Assembly: GCA_903813345.2 (NCBI GenBank)
Contig: CAIIXF020000006.1
Coordinates: forward strand, 17,610,348-17,674,347
Source of the DNA: Owenia fusiformis
Lineage: Eukaryota; Annelida; Polychaeta; Sabellida; Oweniidae
Reading direction: 5' to 3'
DNA length: 64,000 bases
Shown: one piece after another, positions 1 to 23,625 of the stretch
How positions within the stretch are numbered: position 1 is the first letter of the stretch
How the letters are laid out: every line of letters begins with the position of its first letter
The notes under the pieces: model-generated
Databases searched by the model: none
Told to the model about the DNA's origin: nothing
What the model saw: only the letters and a program-made list of their open reading frames with translations
Position numbers and translations under genes: made by a program

Positions 1-518
1 AGTGCAGCTGTGGTATTGACATGTATGAGTTAACTCACCTTGGGTGCAGCTGTGGTATTGACATGCATATGAGTTAACTCACCTTGAGTGCAGCTGTGGT
101 ATTGACATGTATGAGTTAACTCACCTTGAGTGCAGCTGTGGTATTGACATGCATATTAGTTAACTCCCCTTGAGTGCAGCTGTGGTATTGACATGTATGA
201 GTTAACTCCCCTTGAGTGCAGCTGTAGTTTTGACATGCATATGAGTTAACTCACCTTGAGTGCAGCTGTGGTATTGACGTGTATGAGTTAACTCACCTTG
301 AGTACAGCTGTGGTATTGACATGCATATGAGTTTACTCACCTTGAGTGCAGCTGTGGTATTGACATGCATATGAGTTAACTCCCCTTGAGTGCAGCTGTG
401 GTATTGACATGCATATGAGTTAACTCCCCTTGAGTGCAGCTGTGGTATTGACATGTATGATTTAACTCATCTTGAGTGCAGCTGTTGTATTGAAATGCAT
501 ATGAGTTAACTCACCTTG
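1..518 (-). repeat. Minisatellite made of the POMT1 exon-intron junction
   Basis: Twelve head-to-tail units of 42 or 44 bp fill the left edge and probably continue beyond it. On the minus strand each unit carries a copy of the last roughly 26-28 exon bases (ending CAGCTGCACTCAAG), the splice donor and about 14-16 intron bases (GTGAGTTAACTCAT). The exon at 515-704 supplies the thirteenth and authentic copy. Seven of the twelve downstream junctions keep GTGAGT; four read GGGGAGT and one reads ATGAGT, so those donors are broken. Length differences come from an AT dinucleotide (TATG versus CATATG). Confidence 0.93.
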
Positions 519-3500
519 AGTGCAGCTGTTGTATTGACATGTATAAGCCTAACATGTGACTTGATTGTATGCCACACCTCTCCTTCAGTGTTTGCATTAA
601 CAATCTCAACTCTCCAGAGATTCTGTGCAGGGGTAGATATGTTGTAGTCTATATAGCAGCTAACCTCTTGACACTGGGGAGTCAAAGGTGCTGCCACATC
701 ATGACTGCAGAAAATAGTCATAGAGTTAGAATAATTTTCACGAAGTACGCAGACCTGACTGTTTTGCTCATTTTGGTTTGTTCACCCTTTTTTCAATTGT
801 GATAGAAAATTATGCTCCTTTTTAGTGATGCTGCAGTTGCAAAGAAAACTGGACTCGACTACTGTAGATTATGAAAAATTGAGCAAGACAATAAAAAAGT
901 CTTTTGATGTGTTTATTGTTTAAAAATGATTAAAGGAAATTGCATGAATTTTTTGACAAAACAGTTAATTAATTATTCTAATTAACACAAAGATCTCTCA
1001 GATCATATTGTTGACATTTATTTTACATAAACTGCTCCATTTCGCTTATTTAATAATTCCTACATCTACATTTATTGTAATTATGTTCACTGACTATAAT
1101 GGCTTAAAACAGCCTTCAGAAAGAAGTAATCATTGACACCGGAGTGGAAATGATTATTCGAGGCCCTCATTGCAACAATAATGAGACTATATGACTATTT
1201 ACTGTACCTTCCTCTAAGACATAGTTACCTATTTAGGCCCCTACTGGACATGCCATGAACTAACTGTACAATGTCTCCATCTTGTACAGGTTCCCTTGGC
1301 TCATCCACTACCAGTGAGTTCCTACAATAAAAACATAGCATTATTAATAAGTAAGCCTACATAAATTACATAAAACTTTAGCTGAGTTACCCCTGACATA
1401 GTTATCTGCCCTACGAAATCATCAGTGTCTGGATTGTTCCATGGTACATAGACTATTGTTTTATTTCTGTGAAAAATTTCGTTTCTTGCTGGATCATCAT
1501 ATTGCAACATTTTGTGCCATCGAGTGGTATCTATCTAAATATTTCAAACCTGCTTGGATGCTTTACAATCCACCAGTTATTGACATCTTTAAAAGTGTAA
1601 CATGTCACTTGTTGTTGATGACTGCTCCCCCTATTGTCAGAGTAGCGAACTGGATAGACATGGTTGTGGGAATGAATCCAACATGGCTTCCCGTGGGTAC
1701 TGCGTAGGGTCACTTGGGAACCATAGGAGATCTCTAGGGGCTGTCCCTTTGTAATGGCTGCTAGTCCTCCCTACATCAAATGTACAGCAAGATTATAGGA
1801 TGTGACACATGATATTTACTTCACTTATAACATTTTTTGAACTGGTATATTGTTAGGGTGGTATTTTGAATTTGAGGCTCATTGAGACTTTGAAACGTAA
1901 GAATCACGATCTAAACATGAATGTGTACTGTGCATCAAATATCATATTCTGAGTAACTGTTCAAAAATGAATATCACATAAATAATGTAAATTATACAAA
2001 ATATTGTTTCAAAATTAGCAATTAAAGATTTAAGGAAGAATTTCCAATTTTACACAAAGTCAAATGAAGTCTGTATTATGATTTAGCTCTTTATATTATC
2101 TGTTTAATACCATCATGATATATCTATCCATACAACTCTATAAGTCATACATAAATGAAGCATTATGTCATCTTCATATGATACAGCATCAAATAACATG
2201 GCTTTCATATGCTGCTCTTACAGGTAGGTTTCATCGTTGAAATATAATATAGAGGTACCTCTAAACTAGCTTGAAATGCACTTGTCATAATATCGTCATG
2301 TGGGCCTGCCTTCGTTAGAATCCCAAGATGGAGGCCAAATACAGTCATATACAGAAGACATGGTAGCATTATTAAGCATGCAGCTCTTGCACTACACAGC
2401 TTCAGCAGATCTTTCTAGAAAAGTAATTTGTTAATGTGTGTTACATTCAATTCAGGAAAGAACTACACACAAAGCATTAACATTCAAATGTCACCATTTT
2501 TTTAATTTTTTTTATTAAGTTATTCATTTGTACAAAGAATACAATACAAAAATACAGTGTGAGTGGCTGTGCTTTTAGCATTATTAGCCACGTTCTACAA
2601 TTACAATATACAATGTATTCAATCAATACTATTGATTAAAATAAATGAGATACAATAAGATAAAAATTGTTTTGTGGAGGATGTCACCATCTGCCATTTG
2701 TTACAGATGCTGAACTCATGTATATCAGATCATTATTTGGTGTGTTGGGGATATTTTCCAAATCTATATTCTATATCCTACCTCAGTGAGTGACTTGTCA
2801 GACACCAGGCTCCAGTTATCTCTAAGCACAACACCAAGAGCCAGAAGTCCAGTGAATACTCCAATATACTTCACACTGAAATATTAAATGTATGTACGAG
2901 GGGTGATCATTAAGTAATGGACATTTTATACACAGCCGCATTTAACACATCAATTGCTTTGACCTTTATGAACTTTATGAAGTGATTATGAACCCTTGAA
3001 ATTTCAAGATAATATGTAATTTTAGTATAAATAATTAAAATTACACCAATAGTCTAAGACTAATAAATGAGTTTGAAAAATACATGAAAAGACACGATTT
3101 TCAATAACTTTTATTCCTTTAAGTGGGTTGGGCAAAAAACCATTTCCTGTAATACACTATAATCATTATAAAAATCAGGATGATTTACCTGGATAAAGGA
3201 TGAAGATGACCCAAAAATTCATCTACATTTTTGGAACTTTCTCAATCATGGTGGAATATTTTCTTTTGTACATAGGGTGTAAATGGGACAAACAATGATA
3301 TAGCTACATTCTATCTATGACAAATATTTAATTAAATCATGTTTTCTGTCAAAGCATATTTACCTCATTGTGGCAGCTATAGAGATTCCTAATAAGGCGA
3401 GCCAAGTCATAGATGAGATTCTGAGTTCTCTGGAATAACAATACAAAATAAAAATAACATTTGAATTCCTTGGAATAATGGCGCATTGTAGTGAATCAAC

Positions 3501-6500
3501 ACCTCCTGATTGAAACTGGATTATAAAGAAAATAATGTAATATTTGGTTTTTATACTTTCAAGACAAATTAACTGTTTACCAGATAAATGTTAATTTTCA
3601 AAATCTCAAAGAAACCATCACCAAAATATGCTAACATTAGGTGTTACACTACATAGAGGCAATTTCATACAGAAGTAAGAGGAGTATGGGATTAGATGGG
3701 GTGTTCACTAGAGAGAGGTGTTCACTAATACATGTTTAACTGGCACTGTATAAAAATGTCTACTTCACAAACCTTTGATTCTGTTTCCTGAACTTCAAGA
3801 GACAGAGTATGGAGATTGATATGAAGAATACAAGGATTCCTTCCATGAGGACAAATCTTGACTGAGTAAGCATGGCATTGTCTGGAAAATAAAGATACAT
3901 CTATTCATTTTGTTATCAATTTCATTACTTGTATGCTCCTTCATCGTCATGTAATGTACATATAAACTTCATAACTTTTCATCAGTGTATTCTGAGCTGA
4001 ATCAATCATGGCTTTTTTAATCAAACATGGCCATTAACATTACTGGGCAGTTCAAAAAGCACTGGCAGATCCAGGGGGGGGGGAGGGGGGCAAAATCTTT
4101 TTCATGACTCAAAATTGCCCCCCCCCCCCCCAGCCCTCTTTAGCTTCTGGATCCGCCAGTGAAAAGGATATATTTGATCATGGCAAACTAACCAAATATG
4201 ATGAGGAAGGCAGCCAAAGATGCTGCATATCTGGAGAGGCCCATCTCTACTATGATCTGGTATGTCACTGGGACAGTTAGACTGCCTAACATTGCAGGAA
4301 GAGCTCTCAAGTGCCAGATTGGGACATTTGACATATACTCTGAAAAGAATTAAGATTATGTATATAATGCTTGACTTAATATTGAATAGATGAAAAATCA
4401 CATTTTGTAAGAGTATCACAATGTAATACTAGAAAAACAGCAACTCCACAGAGTAGCAAATTCCACCGAACAAAACATGTTTTGCATAAATAGCAGCCAT
4501 ATAATATTTTGAGCCAAATCCATCCACTGGTATTTAAATTATTAAAGATTATGTTTTTATGAAACATGGTTGCGATTTTGAAATTCAGCTGTCATCTTTA
4601 GATTTCTTCTTTAGCAGAGGTCCTATGTCCCAAGGCATCAGCATATAGAATTTAATCCAAATCAGGTATTTGAGTTATCAATGATTACCATGGTGGCCAT
4701 TTTGAAATTCAGAGGCCATCTTGAAAATGTCTTCTTGAGCAGAACTTCTTTGTCTCTAGGCATCAGCATATATAATTTGAACCAAATCCATCAACTGGTA
4801 TTTGAGTTATCAAAGGTTACGTTCTTTTATAAAAAATGGCGGCCATTTTGAAATTTAGCTGCCATCTTAAAAATTCCTTCTCGAGCAGAGCTCCTATGTT
4901 CCTAGGCATCAGCATGTAAAATTTAAACCAAATCCATTCAATGGTATTTGAGTTATCAAAGTAATGTTGGAATATGGATTTTGGAATATGGCGGCCATCT
5001 TGAAAATGTCTTCTTGAGCAAGGCTCTTTCGTACCCAGGCAACAGCATATAAAATTTGAATCAAATCCATTCACTAGTATTGAAGTTATCAAAGATCATA
5101 TTTTTTCGGAAAAATGGCCGCCATTTTGAATTTAGTGGCCATTTTGAAAATTCCTTCTTGAGCGGAGGTCCTACACCCATTAGACATTTAAAGCCTATAA
5201 AATTTGAGTGAAATCCGTCAACCGGTATTTGAGTTATTGCCCGGACACACTTCGTTCGGTGGAATTAAGCCATTTATCAGAAAACATTTTAGGTGAAGCA
5301 GAGTTGTGCAAAAAGTCAATGTAACAGGAAAAGCAAATGTGAAAAGAAAAGGCATTCTAGGAAAATGACAAGATTAAATCATATATTCCAATTACTCACT
5401 AAAATGTTTTAGAAACGATGTATGCCAATGTTTTTAAAGTTTCATTGAATCTGAATACAATAATGATATTATATTTGTATAGATCACATTTATATACATC
5501 CTATAGTAAAATTAGCTTATATTCTAATACACAAACCTTGTCCTATTTTCTCAAACTTAAAGAGTCCATCAAAACCTGCTAGATAAGCGCAGCCAGCAAT
5601 AAGCAATTTGCCAAGTGGAGGATGGACATCAAAGAAAAATACTCTGTTCATATACATCCCAGCAAAACGATTAAAATGTAGTTCATCAAACCTATAAAAT
5701 AGTTTGAATCCAAATTTTTAAAGTTCTTTATAACATCAGATTTTAAGATTCAACGATGCAATGTTGAATTGTTTTTTAAAAGAGGTAAAACATAACTATG
5801 TAAAATTCATGTTCCTTTTTGGATACAAAATACATTGTATCCTTTGCAAGGCCAATCCACAACAATGAATGGACATATATGCATTAAAAATCAATTAATA
5901 GAATCTAAAGAGAAAATAATTAACACCATCAACTTACACTACTGCTTTAGGATGCTCTATCATCCAGAATCTTGACACCAAAGCAACGATGAAAAGATTC
6001 AATTGCATAAGATCAACCTCCATATTGACCGAGAAAGGCTTCACTCTGTATGGATCAGATCGACTCTCCACAATTATATATTCCCTAGAGCTTTCACCGT
6101 CTCCCTGAAAATAAAATCAATTTATTTCCCATATCAGTATATAGGTTGCTAGTATTTCAGTTTTTTATTTAGTTTCCTGATTATTCACTTTATTTCTACC
6201 TAGAGCCTTGGAAATTCGATAACTTTTATTTCACTATATACAATCTTGTGTCTCAAATCTACAAAAGATTATACCATATTATTATTTGCCGAAAAAGGAA
6301 ATCTTTTGCATGTGGATCTATATCGCATGTATTGTATCTTTCACTTCAACATATAAGTAAACAATGGGAATGGGAATAGCACACAATATTCAAACCCATG
6401 AAGATTAGTGTTGTCGCGATGTGCCATAATCGTACATCGGCAATTTTCAGTAAAACATTGATGCACATCACGATGTACATCGAGAAAAAGTCAGAGAAAA

Positions 6501-8742: not shown

Positions 8743-9921
8743 GCAGAGCTGTCAAGTGTCCCGCGAATGGCGGGATTATCCCGCAAATTTGACCAAAATT
8801 TGGCTTATTCGCGTGTCCCGCAATGTCCCGCAAATGATGGCTTTGACCTCCGCAAATTTTCAAAATTGTAACAATCCCCGAGGCTAAATAATTGTGATTA
8901 TATTGTGATATAAGAAGCTAAGCTTTTTGCACTTTTGAGGAGTCAAGTTTACCTAATTTGAAAAGTGCTGCCGAACTCCCAGTGCATCAGATCATCGAAG
9001 ACTGCTTTTGGAAGGAGCATACAGTACACTTATAAAACTATGATTTTGATCCAAATAACACCATAGTTGGCTTCTAGCATGCCGTTTGGTATCAAAATAA
9101 AGAGGAAGAGTGCAAATTTCATTTTAATTACGGAAAAGGGGATGTATGTCACGATTAGTTCCAACGTTGGCCTTTTTACTACGCGTGTCACGGCCTTCAT
9201 CTCAGAACTGAACAAATGTTAGCAAACGCGAGTTCCAATAAATGGACACTGATATCTCGAAAAGAAACCTGACTCCCCATAATTTGATGTAGAATAATCG
9301 AACCCCTATACGAATAGGTACATTTTGATATATAACACTATGGGGGTAAATGTTTCATAGTTGGTCACGAACGCCATAAGTGCAAAGTATTCACAAGAAT
9401 TTTTAAATTTCGTGTCGGATTACGGTACTCACACCTAAAGCGTGGTTTTTGATAGTTTAATAATAGTTCTATGCGTATTGTGTGGAATTGTGTGGAATTG
9501 TGTTGACGTTTACTTAAGTTAAGTGCATTATATTTGATAAATCAGTATCTGAAAGTTTGATTCAAGAGTACTTTTACATTAAAAATCCCTTGAATGTCCT
9601 GCGACATCCCGCAAAAGGTTGATGTCCCGCAAAATCCCGCGAATTTAGGGCACTTTGTCTCGAAAAATTATCCCTCTCTGAAGTCTTTGGTGGTTACCCT
9701 GTTAATTGTCCCGCAAGTAGCGTGTTTGTCCCTCGAATGGTCCCGCGAAATCCCGCGAATTTGATCAAAATTTGACCTTTTAGCGCAATCACGCAAATCC
9801 CTTAAATGTCCCGCGAAATCCCGCGAATTTAGGTGGATGTCCCGCAAAATCCCGTGAATTTTTGGAACTGGGTCTAAAAAATCTGTCCCGCTAGAAAATC
9901 TTTGGGGGTTGACAGTACTGA
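8743..9921. mobile_element. Nested element rich in TCCCGCGAA repeats
   Basis: The left end CAGAGCTGTCAA and right end TTGACAGTACTG are inverted matches. AATAAG lies directly outside both ends and may be a 6-bp target duplication. Many short copies of TCCCGC(G)AAT and CCCGCAAAAT lie at both ends, in the same strand sense at 8758-8830 and 9600-9890. The middle is ordinary AT-rich sequence. Open frames at 8657-8863 and 9668-9976 on the minus strand are translations of these repeats. Confidence 0.6.
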
Positions 9922-10201
9922 ATAAGTGATGATTCAGCGACATGTTTTTCCGGAGTAAATCCCCCCTTTTTAGCATTGGACCTTGTCTGGCCCAGATCTA
10001 CGACGTCAAGAGTAGATAACTGGGCCAGACGGGTTTGGTTATTTCCATACCCTACAGTTATCCCGTGCCAGGACTATAGTCATAGTCCTGGATAGCCCTA
10101 CAGTAGTTGAACCCACATCGTCAGTGGTCATGGCTGTTGATCTTCTACTCAAAGATGAATGGATGCAAAATTAGAGGAATATAATGAATAAAAGTAAAGT
10201 C

Positions 10202-17154: not shown

Positions 17155-18998
17155 AGCATTAAGATAGTCAAAGTATAATAATGCATATTAAGGTATTTAG
17201 AGTATGATAATGCATGTTAAGGTAGTCAGAGTAAGACAATGCATATTAAGGTAGTCAGAGTGTGACAATGCGTTTTAAGGTAGTTAGAGTAAGATGATGC
17301 ATGTTAAGGTATTCAGAATACGATAATGTATGTTAAGGTAGTCAGAGTAAGACAATGCATGTTTAGGTAGTCAGAGTGTGACAATGCGTTTTAAGGTAGT
17401 TAGAGTAAGATGATGCATGTTAAGGTAGTCAGAGTGTAACAATGCGTTTTAAGGTAGTTAGAGTAAGATGATTCATGTTAAGGTAGTCAGAGTAGGATAA
17501 TTATGTTAAGATAATCAGCGTAGGATAATGCATGTTAAGATATTTAGTAAGAGTATGATAATGCATAGTAAGGTATTCAGAATATGATAATGCATGTTAA
17601 GGTATTCAGAGTAGGACAGTGCATGTTAAGGTATTCAAAGTAAGATAATGCATGTTAATTGTAAAGGTATTCAGAGTATGATGATGCATGTTAAGGTATT
17701 CAGAGTATGATAATGCATGCTAAGGTAGTCAGAACAGGATGATAATGCATGTTAAGGTAGTCAGAGTATGATAATGCATGTTAAGGTAGTCAGAGTAGGA
17801 CAATGCATGTTAAGGTATTCAGAGTAAGATAATGTATATTAAGGTATTCAGAGTATGATAATGCATGTTAAGCTATTCAGCATATGATAATGTATGCTAA
17901 GATATTCAGAGTATGATAATGCATGTTAAGGTATTTAGAGTAAGACAATGCATGTTAAGGTATCCAGAGTATGATAATAATGCATGTTACGTTATTCAGA
18001 GTAGGACAATGCATGTTAAGGTATTTCAGAGTGTGATAATGCATGTTAAGGTATTCAGAGTATGATAATAATGCATGTTATGGTATTTAGAGTAGGACAA
18101 TGCATGTTAAGGTATTCAGAGTATGATAATAATGCATGTTACGTTATTCAGAGTAGGACAATGCATGTTAAGGTATTTCAGAGTGTGATAATGCATGTTA
18201 AGGTATTTAGAGTAAGACAATGCATGTTAAGGTATCCAGAGTATGATAATAATGCATGTTACGTTATTCAGAGTAGGACAATGCATGTTAAGGTATTTCA
18301 GAGTGTGATAATGCATGTTAAGGTATTCAGAGTATGATAATAATGCATGTTATGGTATTTAGAGTAGGACAATGCATGTTAAGGTATTCAGAGTATGATA
18401 ATAATGCATGTTACGTTATTCAGAGTAGGACAATGCATGTTAAGGTATTTCAGAGTGTGATAATGCATGTTAAGGTATTCAGAGTATGATAATAATGCAT
18501 GTTATGGTATTCAGAGTAGGACAATGCATGTTAAGGTATCCAGAGTATGATAATAATGCATGTTACGTTATTCAGAGTAGGACAATGCATGTTAAGGTAT
18601 TTCAGAGTGTGATAATGCATGTTAAGGTATTCAGAGTATGATAATAATGCATGTTATGGTATTTAGAGTAGGACAATGCATGTTAAGGTATTCAGAGTAT
18701 GATAATAATGCATGTTACGTTATTCAGAGTAGGACAATGCATGTTAAGGTATTTCAGAGTGTGATAATGCATGTTAAGGTATTCAGAGTATGATAATAAT
18801 GCATGTTATGGTATTTAGAGTAGGACAATGCATGTTAAGGTATTCAGAGTATGATAATAATGCATGTTACGGTATTTAGAGTAGGACAATATATGTTACA
18901 GTATTCAGAGTATGATAATGCATGCAAGATAGTCAGCGTAGGATAATGCATGTTAAGGCATTTAGAGTATGATGATGCATGTTAAGGTATTCAGAATG
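17155..18998. repeat. Satellite array, 29-32-bp monomer, with 152-bp higher-order repeat
   Basis: About 60 monomers on the pattern GGTATTCAGAGTATGATAAT then GCATGTTAA. The left part is monomeric and diverged. From about 17.98 to 18.85 kb, five monomer types (…AGTGTGATAATG, …ATGATAATAATG, …TAGGACAATG and so on) recur in fixed order. The marker CGTTATTCAG falls at 17990, 18142, 18262, 18414, 18566 and 18718, giving spacings of 152, 120, 152, 152 and 152 bp. The 120-bp case lacks one monomer. Confidence 0.95.
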
Positions 18999-21529
18999 AA
19001 AGCGAAGGAAAGCCTATTGTTCAAAATTTCCAGATGATTTTATACTTGAATCTCAATAAGAATCATTGTAAATTCTTCTGTTAACTATTTCTTTTGAAAA
19101 CAATTTTATTTTGGGAACCTTTCATTGATTGTCTTTTAATGGCAAACGGTAAAATATTATGACCAGTAAAAGAACATTCTGACCTGGAATATTGAGAAAA
19201 GATATAGTCTGAACTTGAACACATACGTACACGTAGAAAAACATTTCTGTCTTTGATAGTAGAACATGAATCTGCCATGAGATGGTTTTAATTTTCTGAT
19301 AGAGTATAAAATAGTCACATTGTTGAGATATAGTGGTCCTTCCATCATTTCCATTAGAAACAATAATCCATTATCATCATGGCATATTTGCTATAATTGA
19401 TATCGATATAGTTTGCTTAATGTTGCATGAAACGTAAGATTAGAGATACGAATATTAATTGCTTGCATAAATAAGTCCTAAAATAATGAAGAAAATATTG
19501 CTGGCATTAATGAATTTATTTTGCAAGTTGGGTTTCAAAACAGGTCGAATAATAAATCTTGGCATCTTGTTAATTTGGTAAATTGATCCAATACTCTTTC
19601 TAGTCAGTGAGTTGTGAGTCAGAGCCAATGATTCAAGCTAACACTTGAAAGACAGGTTCCCCAGAGGTCTGTAGTTGAAGGATCAATACTGGCCAATTTA
19701 GTAAAGAACCTCAGTTATTAAAAAGAAGAGGGAGTTATTTTTCTTCTACCAAAATCATTGAATTCATTTTCCTTTGCATTGTAAAGAACCTCAAGGGTAT
19801 AGTGTTACAAGAAGGGTTGTATTTGCAAGAAAGCTGCATGATGCTTGTGTCACTATACTATACTATTTTTTATTTATTTACTTTTATTTATTTTTTTATT
19901 TATTAAAATCAATGTAACATATTTACAGGTTTTAGTGGCCTAATAAGGCTGTGACAGTCTGATGTAATATGCCCTGTATATTTGCCCTGGTCTTGGCATC
20001 TATACATTGGCAGTCAAGTGAAATCTGCCCTAGTCTTTGCCCCGGGTCTTTGCATAATGAGGAATTGACAACATTTTTTACCCACTCTCTCCCGTTCCTT
20101 ACATATCTGCAAAACTTGACATGTTTTAAATGATTGATGTCATTTCCATATTTATTTCCCTTTACATATGGCAATCAGATTAATATATCTACTGCTAAAA
20201 CACAGCTCTTTACGAAATGTGTCTGAAATGTCAGCCTTTATTCATGTAATAAGTATTTTTACTGAAATAAGCTTGTATTCACGAATGCAATTAATGGCTG
20301 TTGGCTATCGGATGCAACAATCTTGTTACATAAGTCTCGGGATGGTAAACCACGGAATCAGAATAATTCAATCATTCAACAATTTTCTGTTCTTAGGTTT
20401 CCAGACAATAATTCAATGAAGGTGTAATGTGACCTTAACGTCTATTCAGTCTGATGAACAGTGTCAGAAAATGGCTCAAATTGGGGTCTGTGTACTGGAC
20501 TGTATTATAGCAGTAAATTGTCCTGGCATTTTTTGTCAGTTTCATTTTATAGATTTAAAATGAATTATTTTTATTTTGAAAAAAATAGAGTCAGGATTAA
20601 ATATTATGATCCTCAAGCTATTTCCAAATACCTACTTAAATGGGTGCCCTTATATGATGCAAGAACCATTGCCATTGCAATCAATTTACAAGCTACATTC
20701 TAATGTCTCAGAATCTCGTTACATAAGACATAGGGCACTTTTAGGTTAAAGAAGTGATTTCATTTGTGTTTTATTGAAGTCTTAAGTGGTTAAAGGGGAG
20801 ATAACTCAGTTCATGATTCTACTTTAGTGATTTCATTTGATAATAGGACAAGTTTATCTCTGAAAACATGAATGATTTTCCATTGATTAACATTTGATAG
20901 TTCATGATGTAGAAAGTCAGCTATTTTATTGCTTTTATTCACATGATTAATTAATATAAGTAGTGTTTATCACTGACATGTAACATTATAACTATGGTAT
21001 ACTTCATTGGTTAGACTATAATTTAGCTTCATATAACGGTAATCTATTGGACAACTACTTAAAAAGCTACAGATGTTAATGTTCACTCGAGTGTTTCAAT
21101 TTTCAATTTCTGTACATGTACTTCTTAAAAAATTTAAACAAAGCCAAATAGACGGAAATATAGTATAAAGTATGAAAAAATGTGAAATGAGTGCTTCGTC
21201 TTAAATGTCTATGAAAATTTGAAAATTAAAATTCAAGTGAATCAAAAACAGTGTGTTGGAAATTGCTTTTAGTTTGTCCATGTTAAGTTCATGATGATTC
21301 AATAAAGGGAAAGGGAGTTTTAAAGTTTGTGACTAATTTGTGTGTGGGGTACTACTTATTCTTACAGAAACGATAAATTTTGTTAATATCAACAAAGTTA
21401 GCTTCGAGATTTGGAAACATTTCCTAATGAACAAAGTACAACAATACACTGAACTTCCTGCTAAATGTACTAATACGTTGAACTTTACCTGCCAGCAAAA
21501 TATACTAAATATACTGCTGCATTAAACTT
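18999..21529. other. No gene seen
   Basis: AT-rich intergenic sequence. Open frames at 20168-20419 and 20461-20703 show no domain and no splice context. A retroelement-like A/T-rich tail lies at about 19870-19940 (inverse of 14776-14835). Confidence 0.35.
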
Positions 21530-22400
21530 TCCCTGTCTACTAGATATACTATTGCACCAGACATTACCTGCCTCCTATATATACAGGTACTATTGCACTA
21601 AACTTTGCTTGCTTAATAAATATACTTTTACACTAAACTTTACCTGTCTAATATATACTATTGCACTAAACTTTGCTTGCTTAATAAATATGCTATTGCA
21701 CTAAGCTTTACCTGTCTAATATATACTATTGCACTAAACTTTGCTTGCTTACTAAATATACAATTGCCCTAAACTTTACCTGTCTAATATATACTATTGC
21801 ACTAAACTTTACCTGCCTTCTAGATATACTATTGTACTAAACTTTACCCGTCTACTAGATATGCTATTGCACTAAACTTTACCTGTCTACTAGATATACT
21901 ATTGCACTAGATTTTACATGCCTTCTAGATATACTATGCACTAAACTTAACTTGCTTACTAAATATACTATTGCATTAAACTTTACCTGTCTAATATACA
22001 CTATTGCACTAAACTTTACTTGAATTGAACTAAACTTTACCTGTTTAATATATACTATGACACTAAACTTTACTTGCTTACTAAATATGCTATTGCACTA
22101 AACTTTACCTGTCTAATATATACTTTTGCACTAAACTTTACGTGCTTACTAAATATACTATTGCACTTAACTTTACCTGTTTAATATTTACTATTACACA
22201 AAACTTTACTTGTTTACTAAATATGCTATTGCACTAAGTTCTACCTGTCTAATATATACTATTGCACTACACTGTACTTGCTTACTAAATATGCTATTGC
22301 ACTAAACTTTACCTGTCTAATATATACTATTTCACTAAACTTTACTTGCTTACTAAATATACAACTGCACTAAACTTTATTTGCCTATTAAATGCCTACT
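21530..22400. repeat. Dimeric tandem repeat, about 68 bp
   Basis: Two alternating subunits share 'TATTGCACTAAACTTTACCT' and differ in the second half: GTCTAATATATAC in one, TGCTTACTAAATATG in the other. Roughly 25 subunits with moderate divergence. No coding meaning. Confidence 0.9.
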
Positions 22401-22587: not shown

Positions 22588-23625
22588 CAACTTTTGCAAC
22601 GAAGTTCGAGGGGGATATAGAGAAGCCGTCCGTTCGTCCGTCCGTTTGTCCGTGTGTCCGGGCTATAACTCCAATACCGGTTGACGGATTTGGTTCAAAT
22701 TTTATAGGCTTATGCCTTATGAGTGTAGGACCTCTGCTCGAGAAGGAATTTTCAATATGGCCGCTCAATTCGAAATGGCCACCATTTTTCGTAAAAAATG
22801 TAATCGTTGATAACTCAAATAGTTGACAGATTTGGTTCAAATTTTATATGCTGATGCCTAGGGACAAAGGAGTTTTTAATTTCAAAATGGTGGCCATTTT
22901 TCGTAAAAATATATAATCTTTGATAACTCAAATACCAGTGAACGGATTTGGTTCAAATTTTATATGATGATGCTTAGGGACACAGTAGCTATGTTCGACA
23001 AAAAATTTCAAGATGGCCGCTGAATTTCAAAATGGCGGCAATTTTTCGTAAAAAACGTAGGACCTCTGCTCGAGAAGGAATTTTCAATATGGCCGCTCAA
23101 TTCGAAATGGCCACCATTTTTCGTAAAAAATGTAATCGTTGATAACTCAAATAGTTGACAGATTTGGTTCAAATTTTATATGCTGATGCCTAGGGACAAA
23201 GGAGTTTTTAATTTCAAAATGGTGGCCATTTTTCGTAAAAATATATAATCTTTGATAACTCAAATACCAGAGAGCAGATTTGGTTGAAATTTTATATGAT
23301 GATGCCTAGGGACACAGTAGCTCTGTTCAAGAAATAATTTTCAAGATGGCGGCTGAATGTCAAGATGGCGGCCAATTTTCGTAAAAAACGTAATCTTTGA
23401 TAACTCATATATCAGTGAACGGATATGGTTCAAATTTTATATGATGATGCCTAGTTCACAATGGTATAAACTAACTTTGTGCCAAATGTCATGCTTCTAT
23501 CACAAAGTGCACAAACATGTCAACATTTACACGAGCTATAATAAGAATAATATGTTTTGTTCGGTGGGACTTGCTACTCCGTGGAGTTGCTGTTTTTCTA
23601 GTATTTATATTACATTGAACTTAAC
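22588..23625 (+). repeat. Composite repeat (inverse copy of 4420-5270) with recent internal duplication
   Basis: It starts with a CCGTCCGTCCGT-rich head, then 'GGGCTATAACTCCAATACCG', then tandem units mixing 'GATAACTCAAATACCAG', 'TTTGGTTCAAATTTTATATG', 'GCCTAGGGACA' and 'AAAATGGCGGCCATTTTTCG'. The right part carries TTCGGTGGGACTTGCTACTC, matching the inverse of 4430-4470. Positions 22725-22938 and 23057-23270 appear identical over 214 bp, 332 bp apart. Protein frames here (for example the SVRPSVCPCV stretch) are repeat translations. Confidence 0.85.

Follow-up and report, generated by a model that had tools for sequence, protein, structure and literature searches.

A minisatellite built on the exon-intron border of a POMT1-like gene in the annelid Owenia fusiformis, and similar splice-donor arrays elsewhere in the genome

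Results

The locus and its authentic junction

The window analyzed here is a 64,000-nucleotide stretch of the genome of the annelid Owenia fusiformis (assembly GCA_903813345.2, contig CAIIXF020000006.1, here C6, positions 17,610,348 to 17,674,347), a species with 12 chromosomes (PMC9539403). All features of the gene under study lie on the minus strand. At window 515-704 there is a 190-base exon of a POMT1-like, PMT-family gene that encodes part of a MIR domain, with a CTGCAG acceptor before 704 and its end at AAG|GTGAGT at 515. We take the gene to be POMT1, rather than another PMT, from its likeness to the human sequence. The authentic splice donor GTGAGT occupies 509-514, and the next exon, which lies beyond the window edge, follows a TTTCAG acceptor at C6:17610226 and continues the frame with LTGRQLPEWGFNQYEV, which identifies the junction at 515 as authentic. 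The preceding exon, at 1229-1321 (acceptor TTGTAG|G and donor AG|GTAACT, both judged by eye), also joins exon 515-704 in frame; on its own it had no match in a Pfam search. Further upstream, an open reading frame at 5517-5717 matches the PMT catalytic domain (Pfam PMT, E 1.3e-16) and is taken as a putative upstream exon of the same gene.

When four exons were spliced in silico, the peptide aligned across the joint at 515 to the MIR domains of PMT proteins in the PDB, exon 1229-1321 belonging to the aligned stretch. Thirteen distinct sequences matched at E ≤1e-5, the best being 9fd1 (E 4.3e-25), with PMT2 (6zqp) at E 5e-24. These matches do not settle which PMT the gene encodes, as PMT2 and unnumbered PMT chains outscore the PMT4 chains. 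Pfam MIR was matched by the spliced peptide with an E value of 7.3e-18, compared with 4.8e-4, below the cut-off, for the open reading frame of the single exon. The first-pass annotation had placed the exon end at AAG|GTGAGT at 515 and made its reading depend on that placement. The placement stands, with the next exon in frame after TTTCAG and the spliced peptide matching PMT MIR domains across the joint.

The intron after exon 515-704 is 635 bases long. The same 8 bases, AGTTAACT, are found at both of its ends on the minus strand, at window 504-511 (GTG AGTTAACT) and at C6:17610221-17610228, where they lie across the intron end (TTTC AG|TTAACT); this could be due to chance.

Anatomy of the array

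Tandem Repeats Finder reported an array at window 1-545 with periods of 44 and 86 bases and matches of 91 to 93%. The array consists of 44- and 42-base units on the minus strand, spans the exon-intron border, and continues 79 bases past the window edge to C6:17610269, where it ends in ACCACAG and gives way to other sequence. It occupies 593 of the 635 intron bases, and the TTTCAG acceptor follows 42 bases further on. The exonic share of the unit is the last 31 bases of the exon (515-545, TATACATGTCAATACAACAGCTGCACTCAAG), which differ at 2 of 31 positions from the next copy, so that a 44-base unit takes at most 31 bases from the exon and about 13 from the intron. There are 14 copies of the junction, the authentic one first, 12 within the window and 2 past its edge. 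Inside the window, the extra junction bases following the authentic one at 515 are at 471, 429, 385, 341, 297, 255, 211, 169, 125, 83, and 39, and the 13 spacings (44, 42, 44, 44, 44, 42, 44, 42, 44, 42, 44, 42, and 44 bases) mostly alternate. Thus, the splice donor and the exon tail are amplified in tandem past the junction, as first reported for this locus.

Every one of the 14 copies ends in AAG, which is followed by GTGAGT in the authentic copy and in six of the 13 extra ones (6 of 11 within the window). An earlier count of seven intact donors among twelve extra junctions is not borne out and can be reached only by including the authentic donor. Numbered from the authentic donor, extra copies 4, 5, 6, 9, 10, and 11 keep GTGAGT, four others read GGGAGT, and three have an initial A. 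The three nearest the authentic donor, at 379-470, all lack GT (ATGAGT at junction base 471, GGGAGT at 429 and 385). The first intact extra donor lies at 335-340 (junction base 341), 174 bases past the authentic donor, and the five other intact ones (297, 255, 125, 83, and 39) lie within 33-296 together with two GGGAGT copies (211 and 169). The two copies closest to the acceptor also lack GT.

We compared 13 units, the first starting at the authentic donor and the partial 14th being left out, with the unit consensus. Only 20 of 562 letters are mismatched, and the variants are common to several copies, as expected of repeat turnover. In a search of the 498-Mb genome, the 31-base junction pattern, with up to 3 mismatches allowed, was found at 14 places, all of them in the POMT1 array, and the same pattern written backward was found at none. 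It is very unlikely that the array is an assembly artefact or has been collapsed or expanded in assembly. Array length may vary between haplotypes, which would favor such a reading, but the copies can be told apart from one another, the searches showed the sequence on either side to be unique, and the array is only about 620 bases inside a contig of 40.8 Mb.

Reading frame and donor strength

Read in the exon frame, the authentic donor continues AAG GTG AGT TAA, i.e., valine, serine, and a stop after two codons. It had been proposed from the first reading that use of a later copy would add a stop, and the frame confirms this. With any intact later donor, the stop would lie clearly more than 50 bases upstream of the new joint, and decay of such transcripts is expected.

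Pairing to the 5′ end of U1 was calculated at -10.7 kcal/mol for the authentic donor and also for the six intact extra donors, except for one of these at -12.3 kcal/mol; the dead copies gave -1.3 to -6.5 kcal/mol. In classic experiments with duplicated donors, the donor nearer the acceptor was often preferred. Given also that none of the intact extra donors is weaker than the authentic donor in U1 pairing, it cannot be taken for granted that the first one is used. One reading is that the array is a copy-number rheostat, with competition between the authentic donor and its intact copies, so that array length would set the share of stop-containing transcripts and hence the POMT1 dose. The six well-paired extra donors and the in-frame stop two codons past the donor speak for it. 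We consider this reading improbable, however, as GT is lost from the first three extra copies and from the last two, next to the acceptor, and as similar arrays in lancelets are reported to leave splicing undisturbed (PMC3087553). Some effect of the array on POMT1 gene dose is possible.

Over 13 units, departures from the consensus are more frequent at the GT dinucleotides (6 of 26 positions) than elsewhere (14 of 536 positions; Fisher p 1.3e-4). Selection against decoy donors was considered as the cause and rejected, because the GT changes are common to related copies and come down to about two events, with 2 distinct changes at GT and 11 across the remaining columns.

RNA structure and possible stepwise splicing

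The consensus unit holds a 12-base palindrome, TGAGTTAACTCA, over the donor. Among 17 tandem-donor arrays from this genome (see below), only the POMT1 array has a 12-base palindrome at the donor; the array L041 has a 10-base one. In the predicted ensemble, the intact copies 5 and 6 and the intact copies 9 and 10 pair chiefly with each other. These observations would fit self-masking decoys, with the TGAGTTAACTCA palindromes letting neighboring copies pair in the RNA and hide their donors. The modelled structures nevertheless make this highly improbable. The intron folds no better than shuffled sequences (z -0.57, with 5 of 20 shuffles equal or better), and the authentic donor, which carries the same palindrome, is predicted to be hardly more open than the extra copies, with a mean unpaired probability of 0.26 compared with 0.23 to 0.25 for five intact extra copies and 0.32 for the remaining one. 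A second accessibility computation gave 0.0002 for the authentic donor and 0.0000 to 0.0002 for the intact extra copies. An Rfam search of positions 9100-10000 of the genome piece holding the array (L003) found no match. We therefore rejected RNA structure as what hides the extra donors, on the basis of the fold z score and the small difference in accessibility. Predicted RNA structure thus does not explain how the first donor would be favored over the six intact others, whose pairing with U1 is as strong or stronger.

The AAG at all 14 copy ends, with GTGAGT after it in the authentic and six extra copies, could also allow recursive splicing, in which copies would act as acceptor and then as donor and the array would be removed stepwise and without trace. 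To the eye, however, no pyrimidine tract precedes the AAG, and the copies are spaced 42 to 44 bases apart, which is below the usual intron length. Of all the readings considered here, this is the one to which we give the least credence.

Other tandem-donor arrays in the genome

We searched the genome for three tandem donors. The pattern AGGTRAGT x3 gave 605 + 451 = 1056 matches and its backward version 314 + 215, while a stricter pattern, AAGGTGAGT x3, gave 87 matches compared with 43 backward; these are counts of matches, not of arrays. About 100 of the 1056 AGGTRAGT matches were listed, all on C1 up to 12 Mb, and among them were 6 arrays. The 87 AAGGTGAGT matches were grouped genome-wide into 12 arrays, two of which each combine groups lying no more than about 2 kb apart. 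With L034 common to both sets and the POMT1 array among the 12, this gave the 17 arrays that were inspected. For the backward pattern there were 16 arrays among the matches listed (C1 and C2 to 27.4 Mb), 10 of which were retrieved, and one of these 10, L051, carries AGGTGAGT in its own unit. Donor arrays are commoner than backward arrays by length scaling but not by match scaling, and since the two disagree we claim no genome-wide excess in array number.

In 15 of the 17 arrays, the array starts at a junction that closes an open run of 93 to 269 bases in the frame presumed to be coding. Arrays were counted as lying at an exon end when an acceptor-like AG or an ATG was seen upstream by eye (L046 starts with ATG and has no acceptor); when AG behind a pyrimidine-rich stretch was looked for mechanically instead, the outcome was unselective, with a hit in L037 too. 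Two arrays were rejected as exon-end arrays: L042, with an open run of 32 bases before the junction, and L037, whose array starts ahead of the junction, with another donor-like site about 126 bases before the array start, its open run of 97 bases not setting it apart. The longest open run to the first motif was 10 to 110 codons in the 16 donor arrays other than POMT1 and 4 to 41 codons in the 10 backward arrays (one-sided p 7e-4), with the frame picked mechanically, so that it is not the presumed coding frame in L036, L040, and L041, and with the junctions of L036 and L037 placed by hand, skipping an earlier motif.

Homology supports a gene at 6 of the 17 arrays, namely POMT1, Muted (L033, E 5.9e-15), Rieske (L036, E 3.4e-8), Tudor (L038, E 1.1e-10), Reeler (L046, E 1.3e-4), and Son of sevenless (SOS; L044, E 6.1e-34). 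L032 is tetraspanin-like with a match below the cut-off (E 0.058). L034, L035, L039, L040, L041, L043, L045, and L047 have an open frame only, L047 with ten weak matches that are each below the cut-off. For the ten newer donor arrays, one chosen frame each was submitted to Pfam, the L042 peptide being faulty; of the backward controls, 4 of 10 peptides (those of at least 20 residues) were searched and gave one weak match below the cut-off. PDB searches with the L041 and L043 peptides found nothing.

The arrays differ in size and in exon overlap. The number of donor-motif copies reaches 29, in L033, and in L036, L041, and L043 just 7 to 9 exonic bases match the next copy, a thin overlap. L036, read past its donor in the right phase, gives V-S-stop. 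L032 (1507-2488, C1, donor strand) repeats a tetraspanin-like exon end in 54-base units that keep the frame, which stays free of stops for 332 codons beyond the donor, so that later donors could add 18-residue repeats; the acceptor side of this exon is likewise duplicated, as a 120-base unit in 2 copies. L035 (1471-1973, C1) has 33-base units that span the donor and keep the frame, with 160 codons free of stops and VSPNAHSFDTE repeats. L040 (916-1132 and 1236-1681, C2) is a probable single exon with tandem repeats at both borders, 62-base units with TTTTCAGGATATGGCA before the exon and 53-base donor units after it.

To gauge chance, we used about 106 kb that had not been selected for tandem donors. 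Six arrays with 3 or more copies occur in it, all in the 64-kb window and two of them adjoining; the other unselected loci in the about 106 kb (overlaps between loci kept) have no array of at least 3 copies. This crude density, multiplied by the genome share near donors under an assumed 150,000 to 250,000 introns, leads to several hundred donor-border arrays by chance, and thus no targeting or special mechanism is needed. An ADH3-like locus (L005 to L008 and L010, partly overlapping; matched to TIGR02818 below its cut-off), the counterpart of the classic case in lancelets, showed no array in the pieces examined.

Other repeats were seen in the window. An array at 21503-22393, whose 35/68-base units carry CAGGTAAAG when read on the minus strand, has no evident open exon before it, so by first look it is not a border array. 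Positions 17159-18995 hold 61 copies of a 29-base unit (TTAAGGTATTCAGAGTATGATAATGCATG). Diverged tandem repeats with ATGGCCGCCATTTTGAAATT-like stretches at 4498-5173 and 22782-23330 (periods of 279 and 116 bases) possibly belong to one dispersed family. Annelid erythrocruorin linker domains had three matches in the genome above the cut-off of 27 bits (best, 38.1 bits), and on the same contig as the window, at C6:27033687-27048438, there are matches to these domains on both strands. COX1, sought for a mitochondrial contig, had no match in the genome, and neither had the GFP family.

Discussion

The POMT1 array is real and its anatomy was correctly read. It belongs to a known type of repeat that, by the open-licence literature searched, has no earlier example in the phylum. 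Neither this array nor annelid arrays of the kind called mirages in lancelets turned up in that literature, with one passage search covering the Owenia genome papers. The array is probably a mirage-type minisatellite, in which ordinary minisatellite growth was seeded on the border and has been tolerated in the intron with the first donor intact. A tandem duplication would once have straddled the border, taking in the 3′ end of the exon together with the first intron bases, and the array would then have grown by unequal exchange or slippage, partly as an 86-base pair of 44- and 42-base units. Because the copies land in the intron and leave the exon and its first donor unchanged, the coding sequence is intact and the array can be tolerated, presumably as a neutral feature. 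The spliceosome would normally take the first donor and remove the whole array, and the extra donors would be tolerated decoys, a slip to one of them yielding the V-S-stop extension in a transcript that is expected to decay. In keeping with this reading, the array begins in the exon tail, and the same layout is seen in 14 other arrays of the genome.

A broader proposal is that donor amplification is a genome-wide habit, at about 60 to 250 places (a rough extrapolation from 6 arrays in about 100 of 1056 matches, or in the first 12 of 498 Mb), and that not all copies are silent. In-frame arrays such as L032 and L035 could add variable repeated peptides, out-of-frame ones such as POMT1 could feed stop-containing transcripts, and array length would be a heritable splicing dial and the arrays a source of new introns. 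We regard this as unlikely, though somewhat less so than the rheostat at POMT1 itself.

Border-spanning minisatellites, known from lancelets, are now seen in a distant phylum and are recurrent there, which suggests that they are a general by-product of minisatellite-rich genomes. Near-identical donor arrays in natural genes offer ready tests of spliceosome choice between 5′ sites of equal quality, and also of whether decoys get purged and whether arrays seed new introns or isoforms.

An array built on a border had been called unusual at first reading, but it is not unprecedented given the lancelet mirages, the human boundary repeats, and the 15 of 17 tandem-donor arrays in this same genome. 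Lancelet mirages are minisatellites spanning exon-intron borders in Adh3, the globins BflGb6 and BflGb9, troponin C, and PGBD5, with units of 10 to 160 bases, many but not all copies of which keep AG/GT (PMC3087553, PMC3902484). They form clusters of unstable length, for which a part in intron gain has been proposed (PMC3087553, PMC3902484); data on the globins and Adh3 point to splicing that proceeds normally (PMC3087553). The POMT1 array is like them in that its tandem unit spans the boundary, with up to 31 exonic bases next to about 13 intronic ones, and in that some copies, 6 of the 13 extra ones, keep AG|GTGAGT. The POMT1 frame across the splice joint is intact. Unlike in the lancelet mirages, it is the 3′ end of the exon, with the donor, that is present in 14 copies, as known here from the sequence of one assembly. 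The host is an annelid with 12 chromosome-size contigs, while the mirage hosts described are lancelets, which have 19 to 20 chromosomes; host group is not a defining trait of the structure. In an annelid setting, repeats are known in the first intron of earthworm metallothionein genes; the passages on these repeats do not describe them as donor-spanning.

Tandem duplication of AG/GT-containing sequence is the basis of the Rogers model of intron gain (as cited in PMC3087553), and human tandem repeats at exon-intron boundaries have been described that can form new introns (PMC2812944). The POMT1 array is like duplication-born introns in that its tandem copies carry AG|GT proto-splice sites. However, we rejected the idea that the POMT1 intron was itself newly gained in this way, as the acceptor, TTTCAG|TTAACTGG, lies 42 bases past the array. 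No new intron is seen, and the acceptor and the next exon, with its unique MIR code, are not copies of the unit.

The IFI6 (6-16) gene also has a minisatellite, two downstream repeats of which serve as donors and give isoforms (Turri 1995, as cited in PMC4526556). IFI6 and POMT1 are alike in having minisatellite copies with splice donors past an exon end. The later donors of IFI6 lead to isoforms, whereas a later donor in POMT1 would lead to a stop after V-S and so cannot yield a productive extension. L032, with its 54-base unit, and L035, with its 33-base unit, are in frame and open and are in this respect closer to IFI6 than the POMT1 array is.
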